The translations under genes were made by a program, and so were the position numbers. From positions 1 through 34,065 of the IMG/VR virus record IMGVR_UViG_3300028146_000026: 34,065 nt of DNA; one strand, 5' to 3'. The DNA comes from a virus. Below, one piece after another: positions 59 to 31,561 of the stretch. How positions within the stretch are numbered: position 1 is the stretch's first letter; each line of letters opens with the position of its first letter. The notes beneath the pieces are model-generated. The model did not search any database. It saw only the letters and a program-made list of their open reading frames with translations, and was not told where the DNA came from.

Positions 59-1141
59 GTGAATGACCAACTCTTCCAGCTCCTCCTTGTCTCCATCGGT
101 GGCGACAAGCTCGCCATTATCGGCCTCCTCCTCCTCCTCGCGTGGTCGGCGGGTCTTCTGGGTGGCTCTGGCGCTGGTCGTGTTGTCACAGACCCCCACT
201 ATCCTCCTCCTCCTCCACCACCTCCGCCCCCACCCCCTCCAGGTCCCCCTCTACGAAGCGCCAAAGGATCCTGGTATTCCCAGTATCAAGGAAAATACGT
301 CTGGGTCGATAACGGAGACGCCCCCGGCAGTAATGCCCTCGGCGTGCCCGATGCCGATCAAGGCATCTCTTTCCTCGACCGATCGAGCCTCGGCCGGTGG
401 TTCGAAGTCCACGCACCAAACGGTATCGTCTCGATCGAACAGCAAACCGATATCGGCCCGGCGAGTTCAACGGGCAGAGGCATCGATATCTCGGCAGCCT
501 GCGCGGAACGCTTCGGATATTCGCCGAAAACCTTCCCCACAGACGGCACATTCCAATGGCGACCGGTCCCAGCGCCGGCAGAAGTAGCAGGCCTTTCGCC
601 TGTCGCGCAGGCCATAGCCTACCAGAAGGTTCGCGGCACTGCGCCAACGCCGACGCCGCCGGCGACGAGCACGCCACCATGGCTAACGCTCGCCCGCTCA
701 TTGATCGGCATCAACGAGAGCGACAATCCCTCCCAGATCGTCAATTGGTCGAAGGCCATCGCGGCGAAGTTCCCGGATATGGCATCCTATTCCGCGCAGT
801 ACACGTCAGCAACCATTCCGTGGTGCGGTCAGTTCGTGGCTTACGTGCTTTCCCAAAGCGGAATCCGTCCCGTCTATGGCCCGACAGATACCGACAAATA
901 TTTGTGGGCCTTTGCATGGGAGGATTGGGGCACGGACGCCACCGGCAATCCACAGCCGGGGGATGTCCTCGTGTTCAAATGGTCCAGCGGTGGCGGGCAC
1001 GTGACGCTTTACGATCATGAAGTGGATGATGACTATTACCATTGCACCGGAGGAAATCAGGGCAACCCCGGCCAAGTCTCGACTGAATCAATGCCCATGT
1101 CGGCCTGCGTAGCAATCCGCAGACCACCCTCATCCCGATAG
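59..1141 (+). CDS. Membrane-anchored endolysin with RlpA-like and NlpC/P60-like (TIGR02594) domains
   Basis: Predicted cell-wall hydrolase of 360 residues. A hydrophobic, Gly/Ala-rich segment at about residues 16-40 looks like a signal anchor or SAR segment. It is followed by 13 consecutive prolines (49-61). Residues ~65-190 resemble an RlpA-like double-psi beta-barrel (motifs QTDIGP and GRGIDIS). Residues ~205-355 match the TIGR02594 cysteine-peptidase type: the WCGQF cysteine near residue 258 and the GHVTLY histidine near 318 are the likely catalytic pair. The start is GTG at 59 with GAGAGG six bases upstream (47-52). It is the first gene of a run of small membrane-protein genes, which supports a role in lysis. 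The domain calls are motif-based; the SAR behaviour is inferred. Confidence 0.82.
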   Translation: MNDQLFQLLLVSIGGDKLAIIGLLLLLAWSAGLLGGSGAGRVVTDPHYPPPPPPPPPPPPPGPPLRSAKGSWYSQYQGKYVWVDNGDAPGSNALGVPDADQGISFLDRSSLGRWFEVHAPNGIVSIEQQTDIGPASSTGRGIDISAACAERFGYSPKTFPTDGTFQWRPVPAPAEVAGLSPVAQAIAYQKVRGTAPTPTPPATSTPPWLTLARSLIGINESDNPSQIVNWSKAIAAKFPDMASYSAQYTSATIPWCGQFVAYVLSQSGIRPVYGPTDTDKYLWAFAWEDWGTDATGNPQPGDVLVFKWSSGGGHVTLYDHEVDDDYYHCTGGNQGNPGQVSTESMPMSACVAIRRPPSSR

Positions 1142-11318: not shown

Positions 11319-11815
11319 CTGAATGGCACGCTGTCAAATCGAGGCCGGGCGCCGAGGGCAAGGCGCTCATCGGCATCGAAGCTTGCGGAATAACCGGGTT
11401 TCTCCCAGTGGAACTCGTCCGTATCAACCACCGAACCGGTCCGGAGACCACTTGGCGGGCGCTCTTCCCCGGATACCTCTTTGCCAGATGCGACCTCGGA
11501 CGCGATTTCTCCCGAATTCTGGAGATCGACGGGATCGAGGACATCCTAAGGGGCCGCCACGGGCCTACGCCGGTCGCTGATGCGGCAATCGAGGCCATCC
11601 GTAGTGCGGAGAGGGCCGGTGCATTTGACAGAACCAGGACCCCACGGCTGGCCCATGGCGACGATGTGGTAATTGGGGACGGTCCGTTTGCCCATCTGGT
11701 GGCCAAAATCAAGTGCGAGCGACCGACCAAGAGGATGGCGCGCTGCATGGAGCTTGTGGGCAATTTCCCGTTCAGGTTGACGGCATCAACGAACAAGGTG
11801 GAGAAGGTGGCATGA
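11315..11815 (+). CDS. NusG/RfaH paralogue (NGN-KOW transcription factor)
   Basis: A 166-residue protein with an N-terminal NGN domain (WHAVKSRPGAEGKA, then FLPVELVRI and ALFPGYLFARCDL, the family hallmark) and a C-terminal KOW segment (LAHGDDVVIGDGPFAHLVAKI, about residues 111-131). NusG-family proteins bind RNA polymerase and alter pausing and termination; specialised paralogues such as RfaH act on particular operons. In this phage it may allow readthrough of the structured late leader at 14285-14381. Housekeeping NusG is normally near 175-180 residues. ATGA overlaps on both sides. Confidence 0.82.
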   Translation: MTEWHAVKSRPGAEGKALIGIEACGITGFLPVELVRINHRTGPETTWRALFPGYLFARCDLGRDFSRILEIDGIEDILRGRHGPTPVADAAIEAIRSAERAGAFDRTRTPRLAHGDDVVIGDGPFAHLVAKIKCERPTKRMARCMELVGNFPFRLTASTNKVEKVA

Positions 11816-12093
11816 ACAGACGAGGATTCTTTGCAGCGCTGGCGACTTTGCCATTGGCTCCGGTGGCACTCAAGGCGGAATCGCCGTCGGTCGATTTGAA
11901 GTTTGGGCCGCTGCCTAAGCGCTTGATAGACAAATTTCGAGAACGGGCGCTAGCGCTCAGCAATGAGCCGCGTCTATTGCCGTCCCCCTGGCCTCCGGAA
12001 ATGCTGGAAGCTCTACGTCGCGATCTGAAGGAAGCGCGTCGCATGGAAAGGTTTCGCGCACATGCGGCGATGAAAACCATTGAATGGACCTGA
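11812..12093 (+). CDS. Hypothetical protein with Tat-like signal
   Basis: A 93-residue protein beginning NRRGFFAALATLPLAPVA, which has the twin-arginine and hydrophobic features of a Tat signal with a possible cleavage after ALKA. The rest is basic and helical with no recognised domain. It is ATGA-coupled to the NusG-like gene. An exported product inside a replication/regulation operon is unexpected. Confidence 0.6.
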   Translation: MNRRGFFAALATLPLAPVALKAESPSVDLKFGPLPKRLIDKFRERALALSNEPRLLPSPWPPEMLEALRRDLKEARRMERFRAHAAMKTIEWT

Positions 12094-18341: not shown

Positions 18342-18590
18342 ATGATCTGCAATTGCTGCGGGCGCGATGACGACTGCCGGATGGGCATCTGCTTTGATTG
18401 CGCGACCGCAGCAGAGATCAGGGCATCGAAGCGATCGGTGTTGCAGCATGTCGGAAAGGCTCTGGGCCATCTCAGGCGTGGCGATTTCACATTCGCTCGT
18501 ATCTCTTTGGCTTGGGCGTGGGAGCGGCTGACCAAGACCGGAGATTACGCGCCCGGTGGGGAATTTGAGGGCTACCGTGGGCGAAGCTAA
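18342..18590 (+). CDS. Small zinc-ribbon-like protein
   Basis: An 82-residue protein whose first 20 residues contain CNCCG, DDCRMGICFDC, giving six cysteines in the spacing of a zinc ribbon or treble clef. GGGGGAA lies eight bases before the ATG. The rest is helical. Its end overlaps the portal start by 14 bases. It may bind nucleic acid or protein; no family is assigned. Confidence 0.65.
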   Translation: MICNCCGRDDDCRMGICFDCATAAEIRASKRSVLQHVGKALGHLRRGDFTFARISLAWAWERLTKTGDYAPGGEFEGYRGRS

Positions 18591-20562
18591 GCGTCGTTCT
18601 GAGATAGCATCAAGAGACGAAGACTGGGACGGCGACGAGCAAGGCTTCCTGCCGGTATCGCGGCTGCGCGAGAAGTACATTGGATATCTTACAGTTAAGG
18701 TCCAAGAGTATGAAGAACAGAAGTTGTCTAGACATTACTATCATGGTGCACAATGGACACCCGAGGAAATCCGCATCCTCAGACAGCGCCGGCAGCCTAT
18801 CATCACGTTCAATGAGATATCTACAAAGATTGACAATCTGGTATGGATTGCCCAGCGATTCAGGGCCGATCCAAAGGCGTACCCCCGCAACCCGAAGAAT
18901 GCTTCAGGTGCCGAGATTGCCACTCAATGCGTGCGGTCCGTGCTGGACGGCTGCGAGTGGTCGTACCTTGATAGCTACTGTGCTGGCCAAGCAGCCACGG
19001 AGGGAATAGCTGGCATCGAACTCAAGCTCATCGAAGGGGATCATGGTGACCCAGACATCTCTGCCGACTTTATCTTTGGTGACGACTTCTTCTATGATCC
19101 TACCTCATTTAAGCCCGACTTTTCAGACGCCAGATATAAGGGCATCAGCAAATGGCTTCATGAAGAGGCAGCTATTGAACTCTTCCCCGACAAGGAAGAA
19201 CAACTTCGATCCCTGATGGTGGAGACGGGCTTCGACCTGACCACTCACGCCGATCGTGAGTTCAAATGGGTGTATGCAAATGAGCACCGCGTACGGCTTG
19301 TTGAGCATTGGTACAAAAACCGGGGCAAGTGGCATTGGGCCTTCTATGTCTCCAATCTCCTGCTCGATCAGGGCGTGTCTCCCTTCGTGGATCATCGCAA
19401 GCGGTCGACGGATCGCTTCATTATGTTCTCTGCCGCGGTCGATCACGACGGGGACCGTTATGGTTTCGTACGAAATCTTAAGGGTCCGCAAGACGAGGTT
19501 AACCAGCGCCGATCGAAGGCACTCCATATTAGCAATACGACACGCCTTACAGTCGAAAAGGGCGCTGTTGACGATGTGGAGACGACTCGGCGTGAGAACG
19601 CGCGCCCTGACGGTGTTGTTGAATACAACAAAGGCTTCGAAGCTCCCAAAGAAAAGGACAAGCAAGAAGACCTATCGGCGCATCTCGCCCTCATGCAGGA
19701 CGCAAGGCAAAAAATCGTTGGTTTTGCCAATATCATGCCGGATCGTGTCACTGCGGCTGAGCAAGGTGAGCATTCCGGCGTGGCGATCGATCGCCTCCAA
19801 AAGGCTGCATCCGCTGACCTCGGCACGTTCCTGCGCAATTACAAGTCGTGGAAGATGCGCGTATACCGGGCCGTCTGGTCCGCGATCCAACATAATTGGA
19901 AGGCGGAGCGTTATATCCGCGTGAACTCTGGCAATGATGAACTCGTCCAGTTCCTCCAGATCAACGCACTTACAGTGAACGAATGGGGCCAGCCTACCAT
20001 TCAGAACATGGTGGGTTCGATTGATGTCGATATCGTCATGGATGAGGGGCCTGACACCGCGAACCTGATGCAGGACGCGTACGAGGTCATCAAGGACGAT
20101 CCGACCATCCCGTGGGCTGTGAAGCTTGAATTCATGCCCATGCCAGCCAGCTTCAAGCAATCGCTGCTGCAAAAGATTCAGCAGCAGAGCCAGCAGCCCG
20201 ATCCCAAGATGCAGGCTGAACAGATCAAGGCTCAGGTGGCCCAGCAAAAGGGCCAGGCCGACATTCAGAAAGCGCAGGTATCCGCCGAGGCTGAGAAGTT
20301 CAATGCGCAGCAGGATGCTATGGCGCGGGTGCAGGATCAGCAACAGGCCCGCGAACAGCATATCAGCGACATGCGTATTGAGGCGATGCGCATCGAAGGC
20401 GAGCGCGAGAAAATCCATATGCAGATCGAGCAGGCTCGGCAGCAGCATATCTTCGATATGGCCGAGCTGCGGGAGCAACACATCACGCGCAAGGCCGACC
20501 ACGAGATGAAGCGCAAGGAAATTGCGATGCGACCCAAGCAGAAGGCAAAGGCATCCGCATGA
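18577..20562 (+). CDS. P22-type portal protein
   Basis: A 661-residue homologue of the podovirus P22 portal family: SRLREKYIGYLTVKVQEYEE, then RQPIITFNEISTKIDNLVW near the start, GDDFFYDPTSF in the middle, and a long Gln-rich coiled coil (residues ~530-650) like the P22 portal barrel. It forms the dodecameric DNA channel at one head vertex and binds the terminase. I chose GTG at 18577 (GAGGG seven bases upstream); GTG at 18556 is an alternative. It is followed by the exported fibre cassette and not directly by the scaffold, unlike P22. Confidence 0.88.
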   Translation: MGEAKRRSEIASRDEDWDGDEQGFLPVSRLREKYIGYLTVKVQEYEEQKLSRHYYHGAQWTPEEIRILRQRRQPIITFNEISTKIDNLVWIAQRFRADPKAYPRNPKNASGAEIATQCVRSVLDGCEWSYLDSYCAGQAATEGIAGIELKLIEGDHGDPDISADFIFGDDFFYDPTSFKPDFSDARYKGISKWLHEEAAIELFPDKEEQLRSLMVETGFDLTTHADREFKWVYANEHRVRLVEHWYKNRGKWHWAFYVSNLLLDQGVSPFVDHRKRSTDRFIMFSAAVDHDGDRYGFVRNLKGPQDEVNQRRSKALHISNTTRLTVEKGAVDDVETTRRENARPDGVVEYNKGFEAPKEKDKQEDLSAHLALMQDARQKIVGFANIMPDRVTAAEQGEHSGVAIDRLQKAASADLGTFLRNYKSWKMRVYRAVWSAIQHNWKAERYIRVNSGNDELVQFLQINALTVNEWGQPTIQNMVGSIDVDIVMDEGPDTANLMQDAYEVIKDDPTIPWAVKLEFMPMPASFKQSLLQKIQQQSQQPDPKMQAEQIKAQVAQQKGQADIQKAQVSAEAEKFNAQQDAMARVQDQQQAREQHISDMRIEAMRIEGEREKIHMQIEQARQQHIFDMAELREQHITRKADHEMKRKEIAMRPKQKAKASA

Positions 20563-20798
20563 GGACCGTTCTCGCGCTAGCGCTGATGACATCGCCTGCA
20601 ATGGCGCAGAACTCATTCCCGACCCCAGGCAATGCGTCGGTCCCTGGCATTCTTCTCATGTGTCTTGTCAATGGCCGGGCCGTTCCATGCTCCGGGACGG
20701 TCACGGGGGATGATTCCAGTTTTACGACGCCTGGGAATTCCCAGGTCGGCGGTGGCGTGCGGATGTGTATCATCAACAATCAGGCGGTCCCATGCTGA
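20559..20798 (+). CDS. Small exported protein with two copies of a disulfide module
   Basis: A 79-residue protein with a clear Sec signal peptide (cleavage after AMA, about residue 16). The mature part is two ~25-residue copies of a module F-x-TPGN-x-x-V-x-G...MC-[LI]-x-N-x-[RQ]-AVPC. A third copy begins the next gene. Two Cys per copy suggest disulfides. ATGA overlap with the portal gene. No family is recognised. Confidence 0.68.
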   Translation: MRTVLALALMTSPAMAQNSFPTPGNASVPGILLMCLVNGRAVPCSGTVTGDDSSFTTPGNSQVGGGVRMCIINNQAVPC

Positions 20799-21835
20799 AA
20801 GCTTTGCGCCATCTCTGGCTTCTAGCCGTGTTGGGCTTCACGCCCGCGGCTGCACAGGATCACTTCTTCCCAACGCCTGGCAATGCCATCGTTCCCGGCT
20901 ATGTAACGATGTGCATCGTCGCTAACCAAGCTGTTCCCTGCACACCAGCGAGCGGCAGCAGCATCATCTCGGGCACGACGCCAACGACGGGCTGCGGCGC
21001 GCAAGGTGTGCTATTCAGCAATGCTGGAGTAGTCGGATGCGATACGGCTTTTACCTATGCTGGGGCGGGCGGAACATTGAAAGTTCCAAACGCCATCACC
21101 AACACAGCAGGTAATATTACCATCACTCCCGCGGGAGAGTTGCGCGTGATCGCAACGAATACGGTTCGGCTAAACGCTGACACCATATATTTTAACAATA
21201 CGGCAACTACCACTGTCATGGGCATGTTGACTGCCGTGACAGGCGTTGGAACCAATGGCGTTATCGCTTGGGTGGATAATACTGGCTCAGCGTTCCCCGG
21301 CCGCATGGGCTTTGGCGGCTTTACCGCTGCGTTCCCTGCCATTGCCCGCAATGGTACGCAAATGCGGATTGTGCTGGCAGACGGCAGCGCTGCGGCGCCT
21401 CTGAGCGCTGGCGTGATCTCTGCCAGCCTTGCCTCAGCCACGGGTACGAACGCCGTTTGCAACACGCCCGGCACAGAAACAGCCCTGACCGTTCAGGTGT
21501 GGGCAACCGGTTGCGCAGCCTCCTCAGCACGCTTCAAGGAAGGCATCGCATCGATTGATCGGGTGAAGGCCCTAGATGACGTGATGCGCTTCGAACCGGT
21601 CTCGTACACCTACAAGCCCGAGTTCAACATGGGCTCGGACAAGCATATCGGCTTCACCGCTGAGCAAATCGGCAGCGTCGATCCGCAATGGATCACTTAC
21701 GAGAATGACGGCGTCACACCGCACGCGGTCAAGTATAACGAGATGGCCCCGCTGCTCGTCTCCGCTATCCAGCAACTCAAGGCCGACAATGACAACCTAC
21801 GTGCTGAGATAGAGGCACTGAAGGCGCGACGATGA
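20792..21835 (+). CDS. Exported tail fibre/spike with C-terminal S74 chaperone
   Basis: A 347-residue protein. It has a signal peptide (cleavage after PAAA), one copy of the TPGN...AVPC module (residues ~25-52), a Gly/Thr/Asn-rich beta region, and a C-terminal intramolecular chaperone of the peptidase S74 type (ARFKEGIASID, HIGFTAEQIG, VKYNEMAPLLVSAIQQL, then a coiled coil). S74 domains trimerise phage fibres and then cleave themselves off. I chose ATG at 20792, overlapping the previous stop. Confidence 0.78.
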   Translation: MLKALRHLWLLAVLGFTPAAAQDHFFPTPGNAIVPGYVTMCIVANQAVPCTPASGSSIISGTTPTTGCGAQGVLFSNAGVVGCDTAFTYAGAGGTLKVPNAITNTAGNITITPAGELRVIATNTVRLNADTIYFNNTATTTVMGMLTAVTGVGTNGVIAWVDNTGSAFPGRMGFGGFTAAFPAIARNGTQMRIVLADGSAAAPLSAGVISASLASATGTNAVCNTPGTETALTVQVWATGCAASSARFKEGIASIDRVKALDDVMRFEPVSYTYKPEFNMGSDKHIGFTAEQIGSVDPQWITYENDGVTPHAVKYNEMAPLLVSAIQQLKADNDNLRAEIEALKARR

Positions 21836-22008
21836 AGTTTCTAGCCGCTTCCCTTGCCGTCGCTGGTTTTGCGGCATTTTCCTTCGGGTATTGGCGGGGC
21901 ATCCGCGCCCGCAGCCAGCGGGATCGTCTTGTCTATATGGCCTTCATTTTGTTTGGCATCGCCGGTGCGGTCGGTGGCGGAATTTGGTTTTTCGCATGGG
22001 GTTCTTGA
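21832..22008 (+). CDS. Small two-helix membrane protein in the fibre cassette
   Basis: A 58-residue protein with two transmembrane helices (about residues 3-20 and 34-54) separated by a basic loop WRGIRARSQRDR. ATGA overlap with the S74 fibre gene and a 13-base overlap with the next gene. A membrane protein inside a virion cassette is unusual. Confidence 0.62.
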   Translation: MKFLAASLAVAGFAAFSFGYWRGIRARSQRDRLVYMAFILFGIAGAVGGGIWFFAWGS

Positions 22009-23414
22009 AGGACTTGCCGATAAGATATTTAGTCGTTGCGTTGGTCTTCCTGGCAAGCCCTTGTCACGCCTTGTCGTGTGATCTGGCCTGGAACTACGTC
22101 GCGTGCATGTATCCCATCATGCGGCTCGATCCGTCCAATCCGATCATGGGGATCAATCAGTACGGGGACAACGCTGCGTTCCTCAATGGAGTGTTCCTGC
22201 AACAGAGGTTCACAGATGCCAGGGCCGGCAACATCCAGACGATGCAGGTCTATGCCGAGCCGTACAGCGGCGGGGTGAACCAGAGCGGTGGCCCGAAGAC
22301 CAACTATTCCACCCTGTTCGGCGTTATGGTCGCTCGCACGCCTGGGCAGCATACGGGCGTCACCTCGATCGCCTCCAATTTCTCCAACGGCGATACGAAC
22401 GCCTTTGGCGGCTATGCGATGTCGTGGGGCCGCAACAATGCCATGGGGGATGAGGGGGCCGAGGGCATTTCGGTAGGCGCCTATCAGGGCAACACGGTCA
22501 TGACTGCGACCGTCACAGGCGTGGCCAGTAACGTCATCAGCTATGCCAGCCCAGTCAACGAGAACACCCGCGGAGAGGGCCGCCCGCTCATCATCACCAC
22601 ACCCACCAAGGTCTACAGTCAGGGCACCATCACGGCGGTTGCCGGGGCTCCCCCAGTCATCACAGGAATCGGGCAGGACTTCACGACGCTTGGCACTGGC
22701 CCAGTCTCGAATCTGTTCATGTCATTGGATACCCAAGTGGGGAGCGGCCTCAAGCTCGTGGTGCCTATTCGCAGCATTACCGACGCAACGCATCTCGTTC
22801 TCGATTACATGTCCGAGGGCGTGGACGGCGCACTGCCGGCGGCAACCATGCCGAGCACGTACAAGATATTCCGGGGCGGCAATGTCACAGCGCTGACATC
22901 GCAACCCGGCAGCATGACGGTAAGCTCGGCGACTGACTTCGCGATCGGCGACACGGTGGAACAGCCGCTCGGATACTCGCATGCCCTCGTCGGCGGTCAT
23001 TTCACGGTAGCCGAATATCTCCCTGCCGGAACCAACTCTGGCAGCGTGGGTGTCCAGATCATCAACGTCGGGCCGCGCAGTGTACGAAACGGTCTCGTGA
23101 TGTCCGGCGCCTTCGACTTTGGGGTCGAGTTCACCGGCCCCATGACTGAGGGCATTCGCTTCGATGTGAACCCATCGGGCGCGCTGCTTCGCTCGAATGC
23201 ATTCGTCGCGGGCGCCACGACCAATCTTCTCGGCGTCTTCGATAGTGCCGGCCAAAACGCCTTCATGAGCTATGACCGCTCCGTCGATATGTGGAAGACG
23301 ACACGGCCGGTGTCCGCTCCCTCATTCGCTTGCGCTGGCGTGGTCGGCGTCAACTGCAACGGCCCGCTGAGTCAGACTGCAACAATCCGTTGCGGTATCA
23401 TCACGTCCTGCTAG
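21996..23414 (+). CDS. Exported tail fibre-like protein
   Basis: A 472-residue protein with a signal peptide (hydrophobic stretch ~8-26, cleavage after CHA) and a beta-rich body with GSVGVQIINVG and repeated Gly/Asn/Thr patterns typical of tail spikes. The end is Cys-rich (FACAGVVGVNCNG and ITSC). I chose ATG at 21996 rather than the longer frame from 21891. Function inferred from cassette context and composition. Confidence 0.68.
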   Translation: MGFLKDLPIRYLVVALVFLASPCHALSCDLAWNYVACMYPIMRLDPSNPIMGINQYGDNAAFLNGVFLQQRFTDARAGNIQTMQVYAEPYSGGVNQSGGPKTNYSTLFGVMVARTPGQHTGVTSIASNFSNGDTNAFGGYAMSWGRNNAMGDEGAEGISVGAYQGNTVMTATVTGVASNVISYASPVNENTRGEGRPLIITTPTKVYSQGTITAVAGAPPVITGIGQDFTTLGTGPVSNLFMSLDTQVGSGLKLVVPIRSITDATHLVLDYMSEGVDGALPAATMPSTYKIFRGGNVTALTSQPGSMTVSSATDFAIGDTVEQPLGYSHALVGGHFTVAEYLPAGTNSGSVGVQIINVGPRSVRNGLVMSGAFDFGVEFTGPMTEGIRFDVNPSGALLRSNAFVAGATTNLLGVFDSAGQNAFMSYDRSVDMWKTTRPVSAPSFACAGVVGVNCNGPLSQTATIRCGIITSC

Positions 23415-23424
23415 GAACTCTCAA

Positions 23425-24135
23425 CTGTATATAAACCCCGTTCTCCTGCCGCAGTTCTCCAATCGTGAAGACCTGCTGCTGACGGTATCGTTTTTCGATG
23501 ACGATACAGGGCAGCCGATCAAGCTGGATGGATGCACGACGGCGCTTCCGTTCGCATTCACGGGCTCGGCTTGGACCGTCACGGATGGTGCGATCGTTAC
23601 GACATCGACCACGCCGTTGACGGTGCCGGTATTTCCGATATTCAGCGCGGCCCAGCTCGCCTTGGTCCTGACTGTTGGCGTTAATCTCAGCATTGTCGGC
23701 GGCGACCCCATCGTGATCAAGGACACCGCAACCGGCCTCAACACGATGGCTGGTTATGTGAGTTCATACTCGCCATCAACGGGCATGCTCATTGTGCAGA
23801 TCGGCATATCGTTCCTGTTTGAAATCAGGCGCGCCGCGCCGCGGAATGATGGCTCTGGCTATGTGCCATGGTACGACTTCGGCACTCCGAATGAATGCGG
23901 GCCATTGCTCAAAGCGACCAACGGTGCAGGCATCTCCATCATAGACATCGGCGTCATTCAAATCCTCATTCCCGCAGCCACAATGCAACAGCTTTCTGGC
24001 GGCACTTATCAGACGGGCCTGATTATGACTGACGGTGCTAACACGCGGCAGGTATCGATCGGCCCTCTCCCGATCTTCCAGGGCGGCGTGTCCAGGCTTC
24101 CCATCTCAGCCGATCCGGGGCCAGTATGGAACTAA
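23425..24135 (+). CDS. Tail-associated structural protein, probable CTG start
   Basis: A 236-residue protein lacking a signal peptide. The frame is open from 23371 but has no ATG, GTG or TTG before TTG 23617. The sequence from 23425 (YINPVLLPQFSNREDLLLTV, then SFFDDDTGQPI) reads as a normal virion-protein N-terminus, a type seen in baseplate/fibre-attachment proteins. AGGAA at 23413-23417 is seven bases from CTG 23425. The non-canonical start is inferred. It overlaps the next gene by ten bases. Confidence 0.62.
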   Translation: MYINPVLLPQFSNREDLLLTVSFFDDDTGQPIKLDGCTTALPFAFTGSAWTVTDGAIVTTSTTPLTVPVFPIFSAAQLALVLTVGVNLSIVGGDPIVIKDTATGLNTMAGYVSSYSPSTGMLIVQIGISFLFEIRRAAPRNDGSGYVPWYDFGTPNECGPLLKATNGAGISIIDIGVIQILIPAATMQQLSGGTYQTGLIMTDGANTRQVSIGPLPIFQGGVSRLPISADPGPVWN

Positions 24136-25814
24136 AACGTCTTATTCTTGCGTGCGCTCTCTCGTTCTTCCTGGCGTGCGCTGGGAGCGCGCAGATACAG
24201 ACGCAATCGACCGTCAATCCGAATGTGCCGGTTCCCGGAACGCTCGTTGAGCAATCTGGGCCGCTATTCCGCTCGAATTGGCAGGCCACAATCAATGACA
24301 TCAATGTCCTATTTGGACGCCTGGCCGTAGGAACGGTTGGCTTTGTCGATGTGGCGAGCGCTACCCCTCCGATTGTATGTGACGGGTCTGATCAGACCGC
24401 CAATCTCAATACTTTGTTGACCACCCTCCAAGGCGCTCTGACCGGCGGCACTCTTCTCTTTCATGCCTGTACCTATACGTTCCTATCCCCGATCATCCTC
24501 CCGAACGATGGGAGCGGCGGCGCACCACATCAGGTCGCCATCATCTTTCAGGGCATGGGCTCTCAGCGCTCGGGCGAGACTGGAGCATATCCCGGCAGAG
24601 CTACGGTACTTGACATCCGCACTTCGAACGCCAATGGCCATATCCAGACCTACGGTCTGGGTTCTCTCACTCTTCGCGATCTCACCATAACGGACGGTGG
24701 ATCATCGTTCGGCAATCCATTTGTCTATACAACGAACACAACCGTCTATGCCTATCATAACCTCATACTCGGGAATGCATCATTCAACGGTACGACTAAT
24801 AATCAAGATGCTTTTGTCCTCGGCGGGACGACGACCGGGATCAACGGGACGGCGACCGCCGCATTCCAAGGGTATGGAACCGTAATCTCGGAGAACCAGT
24901 TCGACCGCATCCGCCGAATGGTCTATTGCCGAGTGTTTTGTAACGGAGTGGTTATTGAGAAAAATTGGGTAGAGCGAAATTCCGGTAACCCTCTAGCGAA
25001 CGGCTCAGTCATTGAAATCGACGGCACGGGTGCTGGCGGGGCTCCGGGGCAAACGGCAGTAGGAACGAGCATCCGTGACAATGTTATCGAGATTTCTAAT
25101 TACCCCTATTTTGTAAACAATTTAGTAGGAAATTACACTCACGTCATTGGAAATAGCCTGTTCGATCCGACTGCCACGACCGTGGCCGGTGTTCTCAATA
25201 GCGTAAATTCCGTTGATACCTTCATCATCGGCAATCTTCTCACGGGGAAGCCCTATGTAACTGGAACGGTGTCTCCGAATGTAACCTTCATAGGTCAAGC
25301 TCAGGATGGCGTCCCATCCGTATTGCCTGCCGGCGTCGGCCCGCTAACTGTCACCGGAAATTTGACAGCTACAGGCATCAACACTCTCCTCGGAACGGCT
25401 GGGAGTAACAATCTAGTCACATTGCCGCAGACTTCCGGGTTGGCGACATTCAATGCTGACGGATCGAACGTCGTTTTTCGTAATACCGGGACCGGAACGA
25501 TGTTCTTTGACAGCGCTAGTGCTGCTGGCCCCTTCATATTCCGAAGTACCGGCAGTTTTACGAACGTGCTTAACTACAACAATGCCGTCTCCAACACTTG
25601 GGTGACATCCAAGCCTCTCGCCGCTCAGGACCTCCAAACAAAGACAATCTATAGCGCAGCGGGAACGGCCGTCCCGACCTGCAATGGCACCAATGAGGGG
25701 CGCCGCGTATCGGTATCAGACACGACCGCGCCGACTTATCGCAGTGTCTACGCTTCCGGCGGAGCCGTTCATGGTTCTCTCTACTGTGACGGCACAAATT
25801 GGCTGAACGACTAA
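24126..25814 (+). CDS. Exported tail spike with pectate-lyase-like beta helix
   Basis: A 562-residue protein. It has a signal peptide (cleavage after GSA, about residue 22), then a conserved adaptor-like segment PVPGTLVEQSGPLFRSNW and NDINVLFGRL, a likely right-handed beta-helix (residues ~95-400; Asn/Gly/Ile-rich turns) and a C-terminal RVSVSDTTAPTYRS...CDGTNWL module common in phage fibres. It may bind or cut host polysaccharide. No catalytic residues can be assigned by eye. Confidence 0.75.
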   Translation: MELKRLILACALSFFLACAGSAQIQTQSTVNPNVPVPGTLVEQSGPLFRSNWQATINDINVLFGRLAVGTVGFVDVASATPPIVCDGSDQTANLNTLLTTLQGALTGGTLLFHACTYTFLSPIILPNDGSGGAPHQVAIIFQGMGSQRSGETGAYPGRATVLDIRTSNANGHIQTYGLGSLTLRDLTITDGGSSFGNPFVYTTNTTVYAYHNLILGNASFNGTTNNQDAFVLGGTTTGINGTATAAFQGYGTVISENQFDRIRRMVYCRVFCNGVVIEKNWVERNSGNPLANGSVIEIDGTGAGGAPGQTAVGTSIRDNVIEISNYPYFVNNLVGNYTHVIGNSLFDPTATTVAGVLNSVNSVDTFIIGNLLTGKPYVTGTVSPNVTFIGQAQDGVPSVLPAGVGPLTVTGNLTATGINTLLGTAGSNNLVTLPQTSGLATFNADGSNVVFRNTGTGTMFFDSASAAGPFIFRSTGSFTNVLNYNNAVSNTWVTSKPLAAQDLQTKTIYSAAGTAVPTCNGTNEGRRVSVSDTTAPTYRSVYASGGAVHGSLYCDGTNWLND

Positions 25815-25815
25815 C

Positions 25816-26373
25816 ATGACTCTCCCCGCAAATATCCGCTTTAACACAGCGGTCCCATTCCCGGCTCTTGTGCTCGGGAGCGGCCCGGTCACGATTTCGA
25901 AGAATAATGGCATTTGGACAATCGGCTTCACAATCACTGCGTTTGGAACGCAGGTTCCGTTGCCGGGGAACTATCCGACCGATTTCCTGATGGGATGGGA
26001 CGCGGTAAATCTGACGTTCTTCAAGGTATCGATTACCAATCTTATATCGTCGCTCAATATCCAATCAGGCGCCGCACGGGCGCAGCGCACCACGACACTC
26101 ACACCGATCACGGTTGCCGGTAGCGATTCCATCATCAGCTGTAATGTCTCGTCCGGACCTGCCGCATGCACATTGCCATCTGCCGCGTCGCGGCTTGGCG
26201 TGCCCGTGACCTTCAAGGATTTGGGACAGGCGACCGCGCATCCAATCACATTGACGGCGGCCGGCGGAGATACGATCGATGGGCAAGCGACCTATGTGCT
26301 CAACAACAATCGCGCCTATGTGACGCTTGTGCCATTCAATGACGGCACCAACACCGGATGGATGGTGCTATGA
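25816..26373 (+). CDS. Fibre-like virion structural protein
   Basis: A 185-residue beta-rich protein without signal peptide. It begins with an adaptor-like part (DFLMGWDAVNLTFFKVSI) and ends in a short repeat domain (FKDLGQATAHPITLTAAGGDTIDG, abbreviated here to its key residues FKD, GDTIDG) typical of phage fibre tips. It starts one base after the previous stop and ends in an ATGA overlap. It may connect fibres to the tail. Confidence 0.65.
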   Translation: MTLPANIRFNTAVPFPALVLGSGPVTISKNNGIWTIGFTITAFGTQVPLPGNYPTDFLMGWDAVNLTFFKVSITNLISSLNIQSGAARAQRTTTLTPITVAGSDSIISCNVSSGPAACTLPSAASRLGVPVTFKDLGQATAHPITLTAAGGDTIDGQATYVLNNNRAYVTLVPFNDGTNTGWMVL

Positions 26374-27551
26374 GGAAGCTTCTTACCGCCATCCTGATAT
26401 CTCTCGCGCTTTGCGGAAGCGCGTTTGCTCAGAGCGGCGTCGGGCAACTTCCAGCATTCAATGTTTCAGGCAATCCGACTGCATCCGCTGCGCCGCCGAC
26501 CGCATTTCCGATCTTCTCAACGGCAAATGCCTGGACTGCAACCCAGACCAACACTCCGCCGGGCCTCACGAATGCTTTCGTGGGCAACCATGCCCTAAGT
26601 GGCTCGATAGGCGGCTCAGTCGAGAGTTGCATTTCCGTTTGCGTCAATATTACTTCCGATACGGTCGCATCGGGTCTTGGTGTAAATGCCATTCAGGTAA
26701 CTCAGAGTTTTGGCGGCTCGTCGGTAACCGGAACGCGCTCTAGTCTTCTGACGCAACTCACTCAGACAGCGCCGACGAATGCCGCCAATCCTTTCCCGGC
26801 CTATGTCGGCGCTACCCCGATCGTTATTACGAGCGGGACGGGCGACGGCGGGACCAATACCGGCGCAGGCGCCAAGGGCACATATTTTGGAGCCAATCCC
26901 CAAGCTCGCAGTTCGGCCACGAATGTACTGCAACTGACGGGAACCGAAAGCGATGTCTTCGGCACGTCAGCCGCCACCCAGCATTTCCAGTTTGGGCATT
27001 CCGCTGTTGGCCTGTTCGTCAACAATGCTGCGACACTGGATGCAGCCTATGAAATCCATATGGGCGCCTCGGCTCCTTTTGGAGCCGCCGCCGCTCCTGG
27101 CCCCGGCTGGAAGTTCGGACTTGTAGCCGCGGAGTTGAGCAATGGCTATGTTCCGATTGCCCCGACCGGAACATTCATTGGCACATTTCTGGGCTCTATC
27201 GGCACGATTCCGGTTCTCAATGTCATTGACATCCGTGGGTTTACGCCGTCTGGAAGCGCGATCATTGGAAACGGTTTCAGTATCGATCCGAGCGGCAACA
27301 TCGGAGCAAATTCCTTTGTTACGAGCAATACAGTCACCGCATCAACGGTCACAAACGGCGCTAGTAAACTGATTATCGGAACGTCTTCTGGTGTGCTTCA
27401 GATTGGCAGTACTGGCGCATACACAGCCAACGGCAGCGTTGCAACGGTTCTCGGCAGCCTCGGCCCCGTTGGATCGCATACCACCGTTCAGAAATGGCTA
27501 ACGATCACCGAAAGCGATGGGTCGACCGTTGGGTGGATTCCCGTATTCTAA
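26370..27551 (+). CDS. Exported tail fibre-like protein
   Basis: A 393-residue protein with a signal peptide (cleavage after AFA, about residue 20), a Thr/Ala/Gly-rich beta body and a C-terminal VGWIPVF similar to many fibre ends. The central NAATLDAAYEIHMG and GNIGAN segments are typical of phage collar or receptor-binding proteins. ATGA overlap with the preceding gene. Receptor binding is inferred. Confidence 0.68.
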   Translation: MRKLLTAILISLALCGSAFAQSGVGQLPAFNVSGNPTASAAPPTAFPIFSTANAWTATQTNTPPGLTNAFVGNHALSGSIGGSVESCISVCVNITSDTVASGLGVNAIQVTQSFGGSSVTGTRSSLLTQLTQTAPTNAANPFPAYVGATPIVITSGTGDGGTNTGAGAKGTYFGANPQARSSATNVLQLTGTESDVFGTSAATQHFQFGHSAVGLFVNNAATLDAAYEIHMGASAPFGAAAAPGPGWKFGLVAAELSNGYVPIAPTGTFIGTFLGSIGTIPVLNVIDIRGFTPSGSAIIGNGFSIDPSGNIGANSFVTSNTVTASTVTNGASKLIIGTSSGVLQIGSTGAYTANGSVATVLGSLGPVGSHTTVQKWLTITESDGSTVGWIPVF

Positions 27552-27565
27552 GGGGTGATAGGTCT

Positions 27566-27781
27566 ATGAAGTTTCTTATTGTGATGCTCGCTGGTCTCAT
27601 TGCCGATTCCGCATGCGCCCAGGATCGACAGCAGACCCCCTTTGAGAAGGCTTTGAGCGATAAACTCAACACGGAAATAAACTCAGGTCTTGTGTGCTCC
27701 GTGACGCTAATCGCAGCCCAGCGCGATCTAGAGATCGCCAAGGCGCGTATTAAAGAACTGGAAGCGCAAGTCTCTAAATGA
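27566..27781 (+). CDS. Small exported coiled-coil protein
   Basis: A 71-residue protein with a signal peptide (cleavage after ACA, about residue 18) and a mature part forming one helix (AAQRDLEIAKARIKELEAQV). AAGGGG lies upstream of the ATG at 27566. It is the last gene of the fibre cassette. It may be a spanin-like or fibre-assembly factor; this is not established. Confidence 0.6.
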   Translation: MKFLIVMLAGLIADSACAQDRQQTPFEKALSDKLNTEINSGLVCSVTLIAAQRDLEIAKARIKELEAQVSK

Positions 27782-27902: not shown

Positions 27903-28853
27903 ATGGCTATGCAAGTTCCAACTGAGGAAGAAATTCTAGCAGGCGCCATTGCCGGCACGGAGCAGGAAATCTTTGACGAAGCTACCGGCCAAGAAGAGGC
28001 AGAGAATAACGGCGACCGCTCCCTAGAGGAGATGGACGACGATATTCCCGGCGAAACGGAGGAGGGCGAGGAGCCCGATGACGATGCGCCGGATGGCGAA
28101 GCTGATGAAGATGATGCTGAAGACGGAGAAGATATCGACGCTGCCTCCGATGAAGACGGCGAGGAACCGGAACCAACTCGGTCTGAGGACCGAGGCCGGA
28201 TACCCTCCAGTCGTCTACGCGAGGAGACAGAACGCCGTCGAGCGATCGAGCAGGAACGCGACACGTTGCGCGCCCAGCTCGCCGCCTTCCAAGTTCAGCA
28301 GCAACAGCGCCCGCAACCTCAGCAGGAACAACCCGCAAAGCCGGACATCTGGTCTGATCCGGAGGCCTGGGCGGCCGAACAGCGTGCGCAGATTGCGCAG
28401 GAATTCACCGCCCGCCATGTCAATGCCGCTCTCGCCGAGGCCCACGAAACCCACGGCGACGAGTTCGTTGCGGCATACAGGCAATTGACATCGCTCAACC
28501 CCAGCGATCCCGTCGCTCGGGCAACCGTACAACGCATCTGGGAAGCGCCCAATCCGGGCAAGGCTCTCATGCGCTGGCACGGCGAGCAGCAAATCCTCCG
28601 TGAAGCCGGTGGCGATCCGTCTGCCTATAAGCAGCGCGTTGCCAAGGAAATCATGTCCGACCCCGAGTTTCGCAAGCAGATCCTCCAGGAAATGCGCGGC
28701 GAAGCAGAACGGGGCGATGGTGGCCGTCCTCGCACATCCACGCGATTGCCGAGATCATTGAACGGAGCAAGTGGAGGCGGGTCCGTCCGAACGGGCGACC
28801 CCGAACTTTACAACGACTCCGATGCCTCGGCCTTCGCATACGCGATGAAATAG
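27903..28853 (+). CDS. Scaffolding protein
   Basis: A 316-residue protein with a strongly acidic N-terminal third (Asp/Glu runs, residues ~15-95), a central coiled coil with Gln/Arg richness (residues ~100-150), helical middle and a basic C-terminal part (GRPRTSTRLPRSL). This is the usual layout of podovirus scaffolds, which guide coat assembly and leave the head. Its place directly before the capsid gene supports the call. Confidence 0.78.
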   Translation: MAMQVPTEEEILAGAIAGTEQEIFDEATGQEEAENNGDRSLEEMDDDIPGETEEGEEPDDDAPDGEADEDDAEDGEDIDAASDEDGEEPEPTRSEDRGRIPSSRLREETERRRAIEQERDTLRAQLAAFQVQQQQRPQPQQEQPAKPDIWSDPEAWAAEQRAQIAQEFTARHVNAALAEAHETHGDEFVAAYRQLTSLNPSDPVARATVQRIWEAPNPGKALMRWHGEQQILREAGGDPSAYKQRVAKEIMSDPEFRKQILQEMRGEAERGDGGRPRTSTRLPRSLNGASGGGSVRTGDPELYNDSDASAFAYAMK

Positions 28854-28902: not shown

Positions 28903-30051
28903 ATGGCAGTCACGACCGTTCAAGCCAATAACAAACTCATTGTCTTCCGAAAGGAAGTCACTCGCGAATACATCCGCCAGAACCTCTTCTCGCCGTACAT
29001 CGGATCAGAAATGACCGCGATCATTCGCGTCATCAACGATCTCAAGAAGGGCGGCGAGCAGATCAACATCCCCCTGATCGCACGCCTCAGGAACGTGCCG
29101 ATCGCCACCGGGACACTGGTCGGAAACGAAGAGAACATTGACAACTACGGTGATCGCGCCTGGATCGACTGGGCACGTAACGCCGTCCGCATTCCCCGTT
29201 CCGAAGAGCAGAAGTCCAGCATTGACCTCTTTGGTCAGGCCCGGCCGCTGCTGGAAGACTGGGGCAAGGAGCTTCAGCGCGATGAGATCATTGACGCGTT
29301 CTATGCGGTGCCCTTGGCCTCCACTGCGCCTGCGGGTTTGGGTTCGGCCAACGGACAGAGAGTCAATGGTGTTTACTTCGATGCTGCCACAGCAGCCCAG
29401 CGTAATACTTGGATTGTCGATAATGCCGATCGCGTGCTCGTCGGCGGCGCCACCGGCAACATCAACGTAGTCTGGGCCACTGCGCTCGCCAACGTAACGG
29501 CGGCGATGACCCTCTCTGCGGCATCGCTCAACAAGATGAAGCGTTTGGCGAAAAAGGCAAACCCGCGCATCCGGCCGTACAAGCTCAAGAATGGCTGTGA
29601 ATACTTCGTGGTGTTCGCCGGCAGCAATTGCTTCCGCGACCTCCAGAACGACACGACCATCATCACCGCGAACACGCAGGCTCGCCCGCGCGAGGGGGAC
29701 GGTCTCGACAAAAATCCGCTCTTCCAAGACGGTGATCTGCTGTACAACGGCATGATCATTCGGGAAATCCCAGAAATGGATGTCCGCCTGCCTGTGACTT
29801 ACACCACGGCTGGTGCCGGCGGCACGGTCGCAACAGCGCCGGTATGGCTCACTGGTCAGTCCGCCATGGCCTGGTGCTGGGGCCGCATGCCAACGCCGAC
29901 TTTCCTCAAAGAGGATGACTACCAATTTTTTCGCGGGGTGGGAATAATGATGGCATATGGTATGAAGACAATCGCTAAACTAAATCCCGCAAATAACTAT
30001 AAAAATTGGGGACTTTTCACTGGTTACTTTGCCAGTGCAGCGGACACCTAG
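28903..30051 (+). CDS. Major capsid protein (HK97-fold, P22/N4-gp56-like group)
   Basis: A 382-residue coat protein. The start VTTVQANNKLIVFRKEVTRE, KKGGEQINIPLIARL, and AWIDWARNAVRI segments match a widespread capsid group of podoviruses; an ANPRIRPYKLKNG stretch and FRGVGIMMAYGMKTIA follow. It forms the icosahedral shell around the scaffold. From about 29930 to the stop, codon use turns AT-rich relative to the rest, next to the homing endonuclease gene, which may mark recoding or co-conversion. Confidence 0.88.
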   Translation: MAVTTVQANNKLIVFRKEVTREYIRQNLFSPYIGSEMTAIIRVINDLKKGGEQINIPLIARLRNVPIATGTLVGNEENIDNYGDRAWIDWARNAVRIPRSEEQKSSIDLFGQARPLLEDWGKELQRDEIIDAFYAVPLASTAPAGLGSANGQRVNGVYFDAATAAQRNTWIVDNADRVLVGGATGNINVVWATALANVTAAMTLSAASLNKMKRLAKKANPRIRPYKLKNGCEYFVVFAGSNCFRDLQNDTTIITANTQARPREGDGLDKNPLFQDGDLLYNGMIIREIPEMDVRLPVTYTTAGAGGTVATAPVWLTGQSAMAWCWGRMPTPTFLKEDDYQFFRGVGIMMAYGMKTIAKLNPANNYKNWGLFTGYFASAADT

Positions 30052-30070
30052 TAATATACTATATATTACT
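30050..30070. repeat. Perfect AT-rich inverted repeat between capsid and HNH genes
   Basis: AGTAATATA and TATATTACT are perfect 9-bp complements separated by CTA. The repeat covers the capsid and HNH stop codons, which converge seven bases apart. It could be a bidirectional terminator, without a T run, or a mark of the endonuclease insertion. Confidence 0.6.
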
Positions 30071-30799
30071 TAGGTGCTTCCATCTTTTGCCTAGCAAAAT
30101 GCGTCCAACTTGCTGTTGTGTAATATCGCAGTTTGCGGCTATGGCTCTTTGGCTCAGACCATCTCGGCTCATAGCGAAAATCTTAGCGATGTCATCTTCA
30201 GTAAGCTTGGCGCGCGCATTACCCGAGCCCCGGCTAGGTGGGGATGGAAAGGCAGGGGCTTCGCTCTTAGCGAGGCCGGTCAAATGCCCCCAGTTCTGTC
30301 CCTTCTCGATGAGACGAACAGCTACGGGGGAGACGTTGAATTTCTCGGCAACTAAATAGCGCCGCACTCCGGCCCTACGCAGCTCCAGAATTTTCAACAC
30401 GTCTTCTTCCCAGAGCTTTGCCTTCGGGTGATGGGTGCCTTTTATGCGATTGCGGCTGAAGCCCAGTTCGCGAAAACCGTGGAGCATATTTTCAGATCGA
30501 GTAGCGAGTTCTAAGTTCACAAGACGGTTGTCGAACTTGATGCCGTTTTTGTGGTTGACCTCGATGCCCTTCTGAATTGGCCCATTGAATGCCTGCCAGA
30601 CGATGCGATGCGCTAGAGGGTGTCTTTGTTTCCCATCCGCCCCGTAAAGATGGAAGGTGACATAGCCGTTGCCCTCGATGCGACCCGCCAGAAGTCTCCG
30701 TTGCTGGCGATTACCTCGGGTAAGCACCCGAGCGCAATGCCCCTGATCAGAAACCAAATATCGGTCAAAGTCAGGGGCGGGTCTCCATTCTTCATCCAT
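30059..30799 (-). CDS. HNH homing endonuclease (NUMOD4-HNH)
   Basis: A 246-residue mobile endonuclease. Residues ~5-45 carry a NUMOD4-like start (EWRPAPDFDRYLVSDQGH), followed by an HNH_3 motif (LAHRIVWQAFNG, VNHKNGIKFDNRLVNLELAT) with the His-Asn-His ligands, and a C-terminal region with two helix-turn-helix-like repeats (LWEEDVLKILELRRAGV and LTEDDIAKIFAMSRDGL). I chose ATG at 30799 with AGGAGGA eight bases upstream. It lies against the virion operon between the capsid gene and a hairpin, as a freestanding homing gene. It would cut endonuclease-free relatives. Confidence 0.87.
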   Translation of the reverse strand: MDEEWRPAPDFDRYLVSDQGHCARVLTRGNRQQRRLLAGRIEGNGYVTFHLYGADGKQRHPLAHRIVWQAFNGPIQKGIEVNHKNGIKFDNRLVNLELATRSENMLHGFRELGFSRNRIKGTHHPKAKLWEEDVLKILELRRAGVRRYLVAEKFNVSPVAVRLIEKGQNWGHLTGLAKSEAPAFPSPPSRGSGNARAKLTEDDIAKIFAMSRDGLSQRAIAANCDITQQQVGRILLGKRWKHLSNI

Positions 30800-30902
30800 G
30801 ACAAATCCTCCTAGAAACACTCTAGTTTCTCCGAGGCGTCATGTCAACCAAATCTGGCGCTGATACCTAATAGTCCTCCCGACGCGTAGGATCAGCTCAG
30901 AC

Positions 30903-30964: not shown

Positions 30965-31561
30965 ATGCGCAAACTCGTTCGCAATATGCTTGGCTCGGTT
31001 GCTGCGGGGCTGTTCGCCATCGCAGCGCTCGCCACCACCATCACGCCCATTGCGGCACAGCCATTGCCGCTCACGCCTCGCTCGTTCGCGGCTCGTATGT
31101 TCCCGACCGAGCAGACGCACTATCTGCGCTTTCCGATTACCTTCACGTCGTGCGTTCCGGTCTCGCTTACCTGCACGTTCAAGGTGGGAAGCGTTCCCTA
31201 CAATTCGTTCATGGTGCGGGCCTTTACGCAGACCTACACCACATTTACCGGCGCAACCACGGCAACGGTATCGTTCGGCACGACCTCAACCGCCGCTGTC
31301 AACCTCATGGCCGCGGCGACCATCCTCACCGCCGGCAACGCGGTTGCCCAGACCATCGCGGCCGGTGGCCTCGGCACGACCGTCACCGGCAACGGCATCG
31401 CCCAAACCGGAACGCTCGGCGGCTTCGATATCTTCGCCACGATCACCTACACGGTGGCCGTCGCGACTGCCGGCAACGCGGTCGGGATCATCGAGTACAT
31501 CGCCCCGAACGATGGCGCCTGCACCGCTGTCGGCACCGGCGCAACCGCTCCGGGCTGCTAA
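30965..31561 (+). CDS. Exported head/decoration-like protein
   Basis: A 198-residue protein with a signal-like N-terminus (hydrophobic ~8-30, cleavage after IAA) followed by a beta-rich Thr/Ala/Gly sequence (ITYTVAVATAG and VGIIEYIAPND) similar to small structural proteins encoded after podovirus capsids. Four cysteines are present. AAGGATC precedes ATG 30965. A signal peptide on a capsid-neighbour protein is odd. Confidence 0.65.
   Translation: MRKLVRNMLGSVAAGLFAIAALATTITPIAAQPLPLTPRSFAARMFPTEQTHYLRFPITFTSCVPVSLTCTFKVGSVPYNSFMVRAFTQTYTTFTGATTATVSFGTTSTAAVNLMAAATILTAGNAVAQTIAAGGLGTTVTGNGIAQTGTLGGFDIFATITYTVAVATAGNAVGIIEYIAPNDGACTAVGTGATAPGC

Follow-up and report, generated by a model that had tools for sequence, protein, structure and literature searches.

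Gene content of the window and its viral context

The window, i.e., the whole stretch of 34,065 bases that was analysed, is the linear IMG/VR virus contig IMGVR_UViG_3300028146_000026, whose gene content includes an integrase, an HTH regulator, a GcrA gene, a terminase, a P22-type portal (Pfam P22_portal, 8e-90 [7.8e-90]), and a Phage_capsid_3 capsid gene, the product of which is 36% identical to the Pam1 major capsid protein at 94% cover. The GcrA gene (Pfam, 1e-32) indicates an alphaproteobacterial host, and the window covers the larger part of a temperate podovirus of the P22/Pam1 type with such a host, belonging to a little-known family of soil-type viruses of these bacteria. Because the window ends inside the nozzle gene, while relatives with the same gene order occur in records of approximately 41 to 46 kb, the usual fibre region is missing from it. 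The features discussed below are collected in Table 1.

Table 1. Coordinates and properties of the window features (SP, signal peptide; predicted leaders are given with the residue that follows the cleavage site)
Feature	Coordinates	Strand	Length (aa)	SP	Other properties	Basis
Portal	18556..20562	+		none	P22-type	Pfam P22_portal
Gene a	20559..20798	+	79	MRTVLALALMTSPAMA, then Q	4 Cys in mature part	
Gene b	20792..21835	+	347	MLKALRHLWLLAVLGFTPAAA, then Q	one a-type motif, tail-fibre body, C-terminal S74 chaperone domain, 6 Cys	Pfam S74 1e-9; PHROG tail fiber 4.4e-16
Gene c	21832..22008	+	58		two predicted membrane helices	no family match
Gene d	21996..23414	+	472	MGFLKDLPIRYLVVALVFLASPCHA, then L	6 Cys in mature part	no family match
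Gene e	23425..24135	+		none	CTG start	relative of Pam5_17 "receptor-binding protein" slot
Gene f	24126..25814	+	562	MELKRLILACALSFFLACAGSA, then Q	tailspike-like body, 6 Cys in mature part	
Gene g	25816..26373	+	185	none	resembles N-terminal region of Pam5 tailspike (Pam5_18)	alignment
Gene h	26370..27551	+	393	MRKLLTAILISLALCGSAFA, then Q	fibre-like	no family match
Gene i	27566..27781	+	71	probable: MKFLIVMLAGLIADSACA, then Q	short coiled coil	
Scaffold protein	27903..28853	+		none	no Cys	
Major capsid protein	28903..30051	+		none		Phage_capsid_3 1.5e-33; Pam1 major capsid protein 36%
Gene j	30965..31561	+		predicted	capsid cement (decoration) protein, 4 Cys	profile, synteny, fold

The cassette between portal and scaffold

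The named genes between the portal and the scaffold gene are all real and share a single orientation, which substantiates the placement of the cassette at this site in the original prediction. The accompanying statement that P22-type phages carry the scaffold gene directly after the portal gene was confirmed in Pam1 and in the Devosia and Bradyrhizobium relatives, and several distant lysogens display this order with no SP genes at the junction; in the window, 7.3 kb of other genes intervene, and relatives vary at this site, with portal-scaffold spacings from 0.3 to 9 kb. Six cassette genes had been proposed to begin with signal peptides. Five of these (20559, 20792, 21996, 24126, and 26370) possess strong Sec/signal peptidase I (SPase I) signal peptides, from which export is predicted, whereas that of gene i (27566) is weaker: its leader appears correct by eye, yet the Asp preceding the cleavage site fails the strict rule when read from its own ATG, and its mature part contains one Cys. 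Genes e and g carry no signal peptide, and the two-helix membrane protein mentioned in the original prediction corresponds to gene c.

Following its leader, gene a encodes two copies of a motif of approximately 25 residues (F.TPG...MC......AVPC), which is also present in proteins at the same position in related loci. The portal stop codon overlaps the start of gene a (ATGA), as the start of gene h does gene g (ATGA), and such overlaps with portal and fibre genes indicate that the SP genes are late genes. Gene e was aligned with homologues beginning MY.NP.LLPQ.SNRED, and its CTG start codon was checked.

The designation of the cassette as one of fibres applies to part of its content. Gene b is identified as a fibre by its predicted S74 domain, and the body of gene f resembles that of a tailspike, being 32 to 38% identical to L003:6741, in which the similar body follows an SP-less g-type N terminus in place of a signal peptide. 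Genes a, c, and i were not identified as fibres, and genes c, d, and h were without a family in Pfam/PHROG-type profile searches. In one relative (G015), the end of the fibre module is ordered e-g-fibre-i, terminating in a relative of gene i; this order resembles e-f-g-h-i of the window, which suggests relocation of a fibre module as the origin of the cassette.

Signal peptide frequency across gene classes

Signal peptides were called with a self-written rule based on a basic n-region, a hydrophobic core, and an AxA-type site (Sec/SPase I). When calibrated against 119 Escherichia coli K-12 proteins at their annotated starts, the rule called 17 of 17 exported and 0 of 76 cytoplasmic proteins, while 3.4% of shuffled N termini passed; some inner-membrane proteins (5/26) were also called. 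Portal searches provided a comparison set of 78 viral and 14 bacterial loci, mostly of Hyphomicrobiales, within which the near clade was defined by a portal at least 55% identical; the following counts are those of the near clade in 67 non-redundant related loci. Signal peptides were called in 53 of 112 post-portal genes (38/82 in the portal-scaffold interval and 15/30 further post-portal genes), in all 25 cement genes (see below), in 6 of 434 other genes, and in a single one of 211 core structural genes, the exception being a TerL gene (L017/G012) whose signal looks like a start-codon artefact. The signal peptide prediction that had been put forward as a check supports the original observation. 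The Fisher P value of 6e-28 for post-portal versus core structural genes overstates independence, as homologous cassettes are over-represented.

Signal peptides are not a uniform property of such proteins. The portal-scaffold cassettes of L031 and L050 are devoid of SP genes, though the cement gene of each has one, and several long, Cys-rich g-type spikes (L005, L006, L007, and L067) lack a signal peptide, implying that not every outer protein would be exported. As S74 proteins of Hyphomicrobiales in general are mostly without a signal peptide where readable, it does not represent a trait of S74.

Gene j as a predicted capsid cement protein

The original prediction had confined the phenomenon to fibres within a 7-kb cassette, a limit which does not hold: related genomes carry signal peptides in the fibre module at its usual place, and gene j, whose signal peptide had been overlooked, lies outside the cassette. 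On the basis of profile, synteny, and fold comparison, gene j is assigned as the capsid cement protein of Pam1-like podoviruses, with a predicted location on the capsid surface. It is positioned directly after the major capsid gene in all assessed loci, an HNH-like gene on the opposite strand separating the two in the window. The j profile alone retrieved no match in a direct PDB profile search, and homology was reached via SP-less positional homologues of distant lysogens, whose profile aligns with that of j (hhalign, 93.9%, E 1.6e-7) and which match the Pam1 cement protein (7eel_H) at 2e-16. The structural model of j (mean pLDDT 74) is a beta-sandwich with the cement fold, its signal peptide being predicted as a helix, and the best PDB fold match is likewise 7eel_H (E 3e-4), followed by GP4 capsid and KHP40/KHP30 cement entries. 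By scanning with the j profile, additional genomes were identified in which an SP-less gene immediately follows that of the capsid protein.

A second, portal-independent search yielded 54 distinct j genes, 50 of which carry a signal peptide by the rule; among the remaining four, a leader is obvious by eye in two, the contig end truncates a third, and the fourth passes when its portal-anchored copy is read from a different start, such that the signal peptide is present on j in all assessable relatives. Identity across the family is lower in the leader (30%) than in the mature part (49%), while the charge, hydrophobic core, and AxA site of the leader are kept. In a capsid-protein tree, all rows with SP-bearing cement fall within one group (support 80/98), which also includes two unassessed rows, and all known SP-less cement rows fall outside it, making a single gain of the signal peptide possible. 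The cement gene of Pam1 and KHP30 ORF15, the gene after the structural protein ORF14, are without a signal peptide; at 126 aa, ORF15 is as long as the solved cement chain, indicating that no leader is removed there. No solved cement protein known to this analysis carries a signal peptide.

The Rz-like spanin label given to the j family by PHROG was rejected in view of the modelled beta-sandwich cement fold and the lack of a lipobox, and looks wrong. Gene k, an extra cytoplasmic gene located after j in some near-clade loci, was considered as a substitute cement gene and set aside, having no PDB relative.

Fibre p and other signal peptide-bearing spikes

In related full genomes, a further fibre, here termed p, is encoded after the ejection proteins. 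Among 30 distinct p proteins, 25 possess a signal peptide by the rule and two more by eye. The signal peptide directly precedes a domain matching the head-binding domain of the Pam1 tailspike (7eeq_A, 2e-6), and the mature part of p aligns with the tail fibre of Pam5, which has the same p-e-spike order without signal peptides. The SP-less p of L267 contains no Cys. The predicted structure of p (mean pLDDT 35) was left out of the evidence. One SP protein of another relative (L057) matches tail spikes.

Cysteine parity

The number of Cys residues is even in 46 of 51 mature SP-bearing interval proteins, compared to a share of approximately 40% elsewhere (interval proteins without a signal peptide, 35%; core proteins, 41%; all remaining proteins, 39%). 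When counted by family, even outnumber odd numbers by 14 to 2 among those with signal peptides versus 56 to 105 among all others (P 5e-5). Mature j contains 4 or 6 Cys in 50 of 50 cases, all even, while the SP-less cement homologues that were read contain 0 to 1, and the ejection proteins of related full genomes contain none. Even Cys numbers are preferred among exported Gram-negative proteins (PMC7678975), and parity thus offers evidence, independent of the leader, that points to an oxidising compartment.

Comparison with known systems

Pam1 and Pam5, P22-like podoviruses of Pseudanabaena (cyanophages), encode portal and capsid proteins 30 to 36% identical to those of the window. The cement fold and the tailspike head-binding domain are common to Pam1 and the window group, as is the fibre-RBP-spike module to the latter and Pam5; unlike in the window group, however, the Pam1 cement, Pam1 spike, and Pam5 fibre have no signal peptide. 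The gene order of Pam1 is portal-scaffold-MCP-cement-adaptor-needle head, without the cassette that separates portal and scaffold in the window. Prophages of Devosia, Bradyrhizobium tropiciagri, Mesorhizobium, and Chelatococcus (L081 to L093) represent alphaproteobacterial lysogens with the same head-gene order, in which cement is without a signal peptide (0 to 1 Cys where readable) and no SP cassette follows the portal.

The coat proteins pIII and pVIII of the filamentous phage M13 are made with signal peptides, yet such coats surround extruded ssDNA filaments with no tailed capsid, unlike the window virus. An inovirus-type exported coat was rejected here, the window bearing tailed-phage genes (terminase, portal, and capsid) and not filamentous ssDNA genes. 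Phage L Dec, T4 Soc/Hoc, and lambda gpD are outer capsid proteins added after expansion, as is proposed for the present cement protein, but are cytoplasmic and not known to have a signal peptide. A review that covers the in vitro binding of Dec makes no mention of signal peptides, the periplasm, or disulfides (PMC7602432).

Among 50,697 records of isolated phages, none matched h, j, or either of two SP proteins from a relative (L019), and the matches to gene b are confined to the stretch between its middle and its S74 end. In a literature search of open-access papers, Sec signals were nowhere described for the cement or fibres of tailed phages. While the individual components (podovirus cement, fibres, and signal peptides) are of known kinds, their combination was not found in the isolated-phage collection and literature searched.

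Proposed export and late assembly of outer virion proteins

Signal peptides are thus predicted on outer virion-type proteins, namely, cement, several fibre/spike proteins, and small partners, and are lacking from the inner parts (portal, scaffold, major capsid protein, adaptor, nozzle, and ejection proteins). The textbook view is that tailed-phage assembly takes place entirely in the cytoplasm, a compartment which disfavours disulfide bonds. We consider it somewhat probable that the outer proteins of this virion are exported and disulfide bonded, and that they join particles of cytoplasmic origin when the inner membrane is broken at lysis; cleavage, export, virion incorporation, disulfides, and timing are inferred from computed signals, homologies, and the Cys pattern. 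The SP proteins would be expressed from the late operon that includes the portal, cross the inner membrane via Sec, lose the signal peptide, and fold and form disulfides in the periplasm, where they would wait while DNA-filled particles assemble in the cytoplasm. Opening of the inner membrane by holin and endolysin would then allow particles to meet the periplasmic proteins, upon which cement would bind the expanded capsid and fibres the tail. The gains may be a disulfide-hardened outer shell and the separation of cement and receptor-binding proteins from procapsids during their assembly. We see an even chance that this division extends to a whole clade of tailed phages, with a DNA-filled core formed in the cytoplasm, cement and fibres acquiring their disulfide bonds in the periplasm, and the two joined only at or after lysis.

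The absence of cement during packaging would be unexpected where cement resists packaging pressure. A parallel for late decoration is provided by Dec, which binds mature P22 capsids in vitro (PMC7602432).

The main rival explanation, which we regard as unlikely, is that the SP proteins are exported but remain outside progeny virions and act in the envelope or the medium, for example, in superinfection exclusion, as receptor decoys, or as adhesins that descend from former fibre and cement genes. Phage exclusion proteins that act in the envelope are known, SP-less g-type spikes which could be the real spikes lie beside SP genes in some loci, and gene k might replace cement in the near-clade loci that possess it. 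However, k was not detected in at least nine loci with SP-bearing cement, the SP genes overlap the portal and other structural genes and do not form a separate unit, and the tail-attachment domain retained by p behind its signal peptide, together with the place of cement directly after the capsid gene in every assessable relative, is explained less well by this reading than by export and late assembly.

The original prediction had left export beside use of the N termini as anchors, and export is by far the better supported of the two. Leaders that stay uncleaved, as hydrophobic tails anchoring fibres and cement or aiding membrane passage of DNA at the next infection, would accord with the predicted helix of the j leader and with the interaction of podovirus ejection proteins with membranes. 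This appears quite improbable, given that a similar n/h/c layout with an AxA site precedes unrelated domains, that the cement leader varies more than the mature part, that even Cys numbers point to an oxidising compartment, and that the SP-less homologues of Pam1 and Pam5 work without such a tail; moreover, the domain behind the signal peptide of p is itself a homologue of the head-binding domain of the Pam1 tailspike, so that no further anchor is needed. A comparably small probability is assigned to partial export, whereby slow or saturated Sec would leave a cytoplasmic pool to assemble, export being a by-product: phages express late genes strongly and precursors can build up, yet the paired Cys and the signal peptide in all assessable cement proteins would be left unexplained. 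Finally, the leaders were read from the sequences of metagenomic contigs, and the sole core-gene signal itself looks like a start artefact; an origin in start-codon choice or chimeric contigs is nonetheless scarcely credible, as the pattern recurs in dozens of contigs independent of one another, in which the leaders are in frame and begin mostly with ATG.

Should export and late assembly apply, part of a tailed-phage virion would be finished outside the cytoplasm, with disulfide bonds, which would explain a possible hardening of the shell in soil phage, and whether decoration can wait until lysis becomes a directly testable question. For annotation, phage genes bearing signal peptides can be structural, the spanin call within PHROGs serving as a warning, and portal-scaffold gaps can hold fibre modules. 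Some members of the group derive from records numbered like isolate genomes, candidates being IMGVR 2511231028, 2747843221, 2551306670, and 2903768456, so a test in culture is perhaps possible.

Cassette genes between the portal and scaffold genes

A motif of approximately 25 residues with two cysteines, F.TPG...MC......AVPC, is present in two copies in gene a and in one copy in gene b, a tail fibre gene, with higher copy numbers in relatives, such as the related loci L004 and L007. Gene c, for which no match was found in the related loci searched, specifies a two-helix membrane protein and overlaps both b and gene d, to which, judging from these overlaps, it is predicted to be translationally coupled; its product could be holin-like. 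The apparent start codon of gene e is CTG, with ATG occupying the same place in its homologues.

Coordinates and properties of the genes discussed
Feature	Locus and position	Strand	Remarks
a	window 20559-20798
b	window 20792-21835
c	window 21832-22008
e	window 23425-24135
CHAP-domain protein	window 59-1141		hydrophobic N-terminal helix and proline run ahead of CHAP domain
HNH/NUMOD-like gene	window 30059-30820	-	read by eye; between capsid and cement genes, on opposite strand
Small genes with twin-arginine-like leaders (MNRRGFFAALATLPLAPVALKA)	window 11812-12093; related loci L028, 11914, and G013, 16253

Genes outside the cassette

The CHAP-domain protein is probably a membrane-tethered endolysin. 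Annotated HNH genes likewise adjoin the capsid gene in phage RHph_Y1_10. Some of the small genes lie close to the terminase or portal gene, and their twin-arginine-like leaders are possible Tat signals; a Pfam search with the window copy returned no match.

The family phrog_20969, whose description, “Rz-like spanin,” is probably wrong, was matched by 15 of the 23 cement (capsid decoration) proteins and by one cement gene lacking a signal peptide. A short distance past the signal peptide-less cement gene of prophage locus L277 lies an open frame of 448 residues (L277:2051-3394) which bears a predicted signal peptide.
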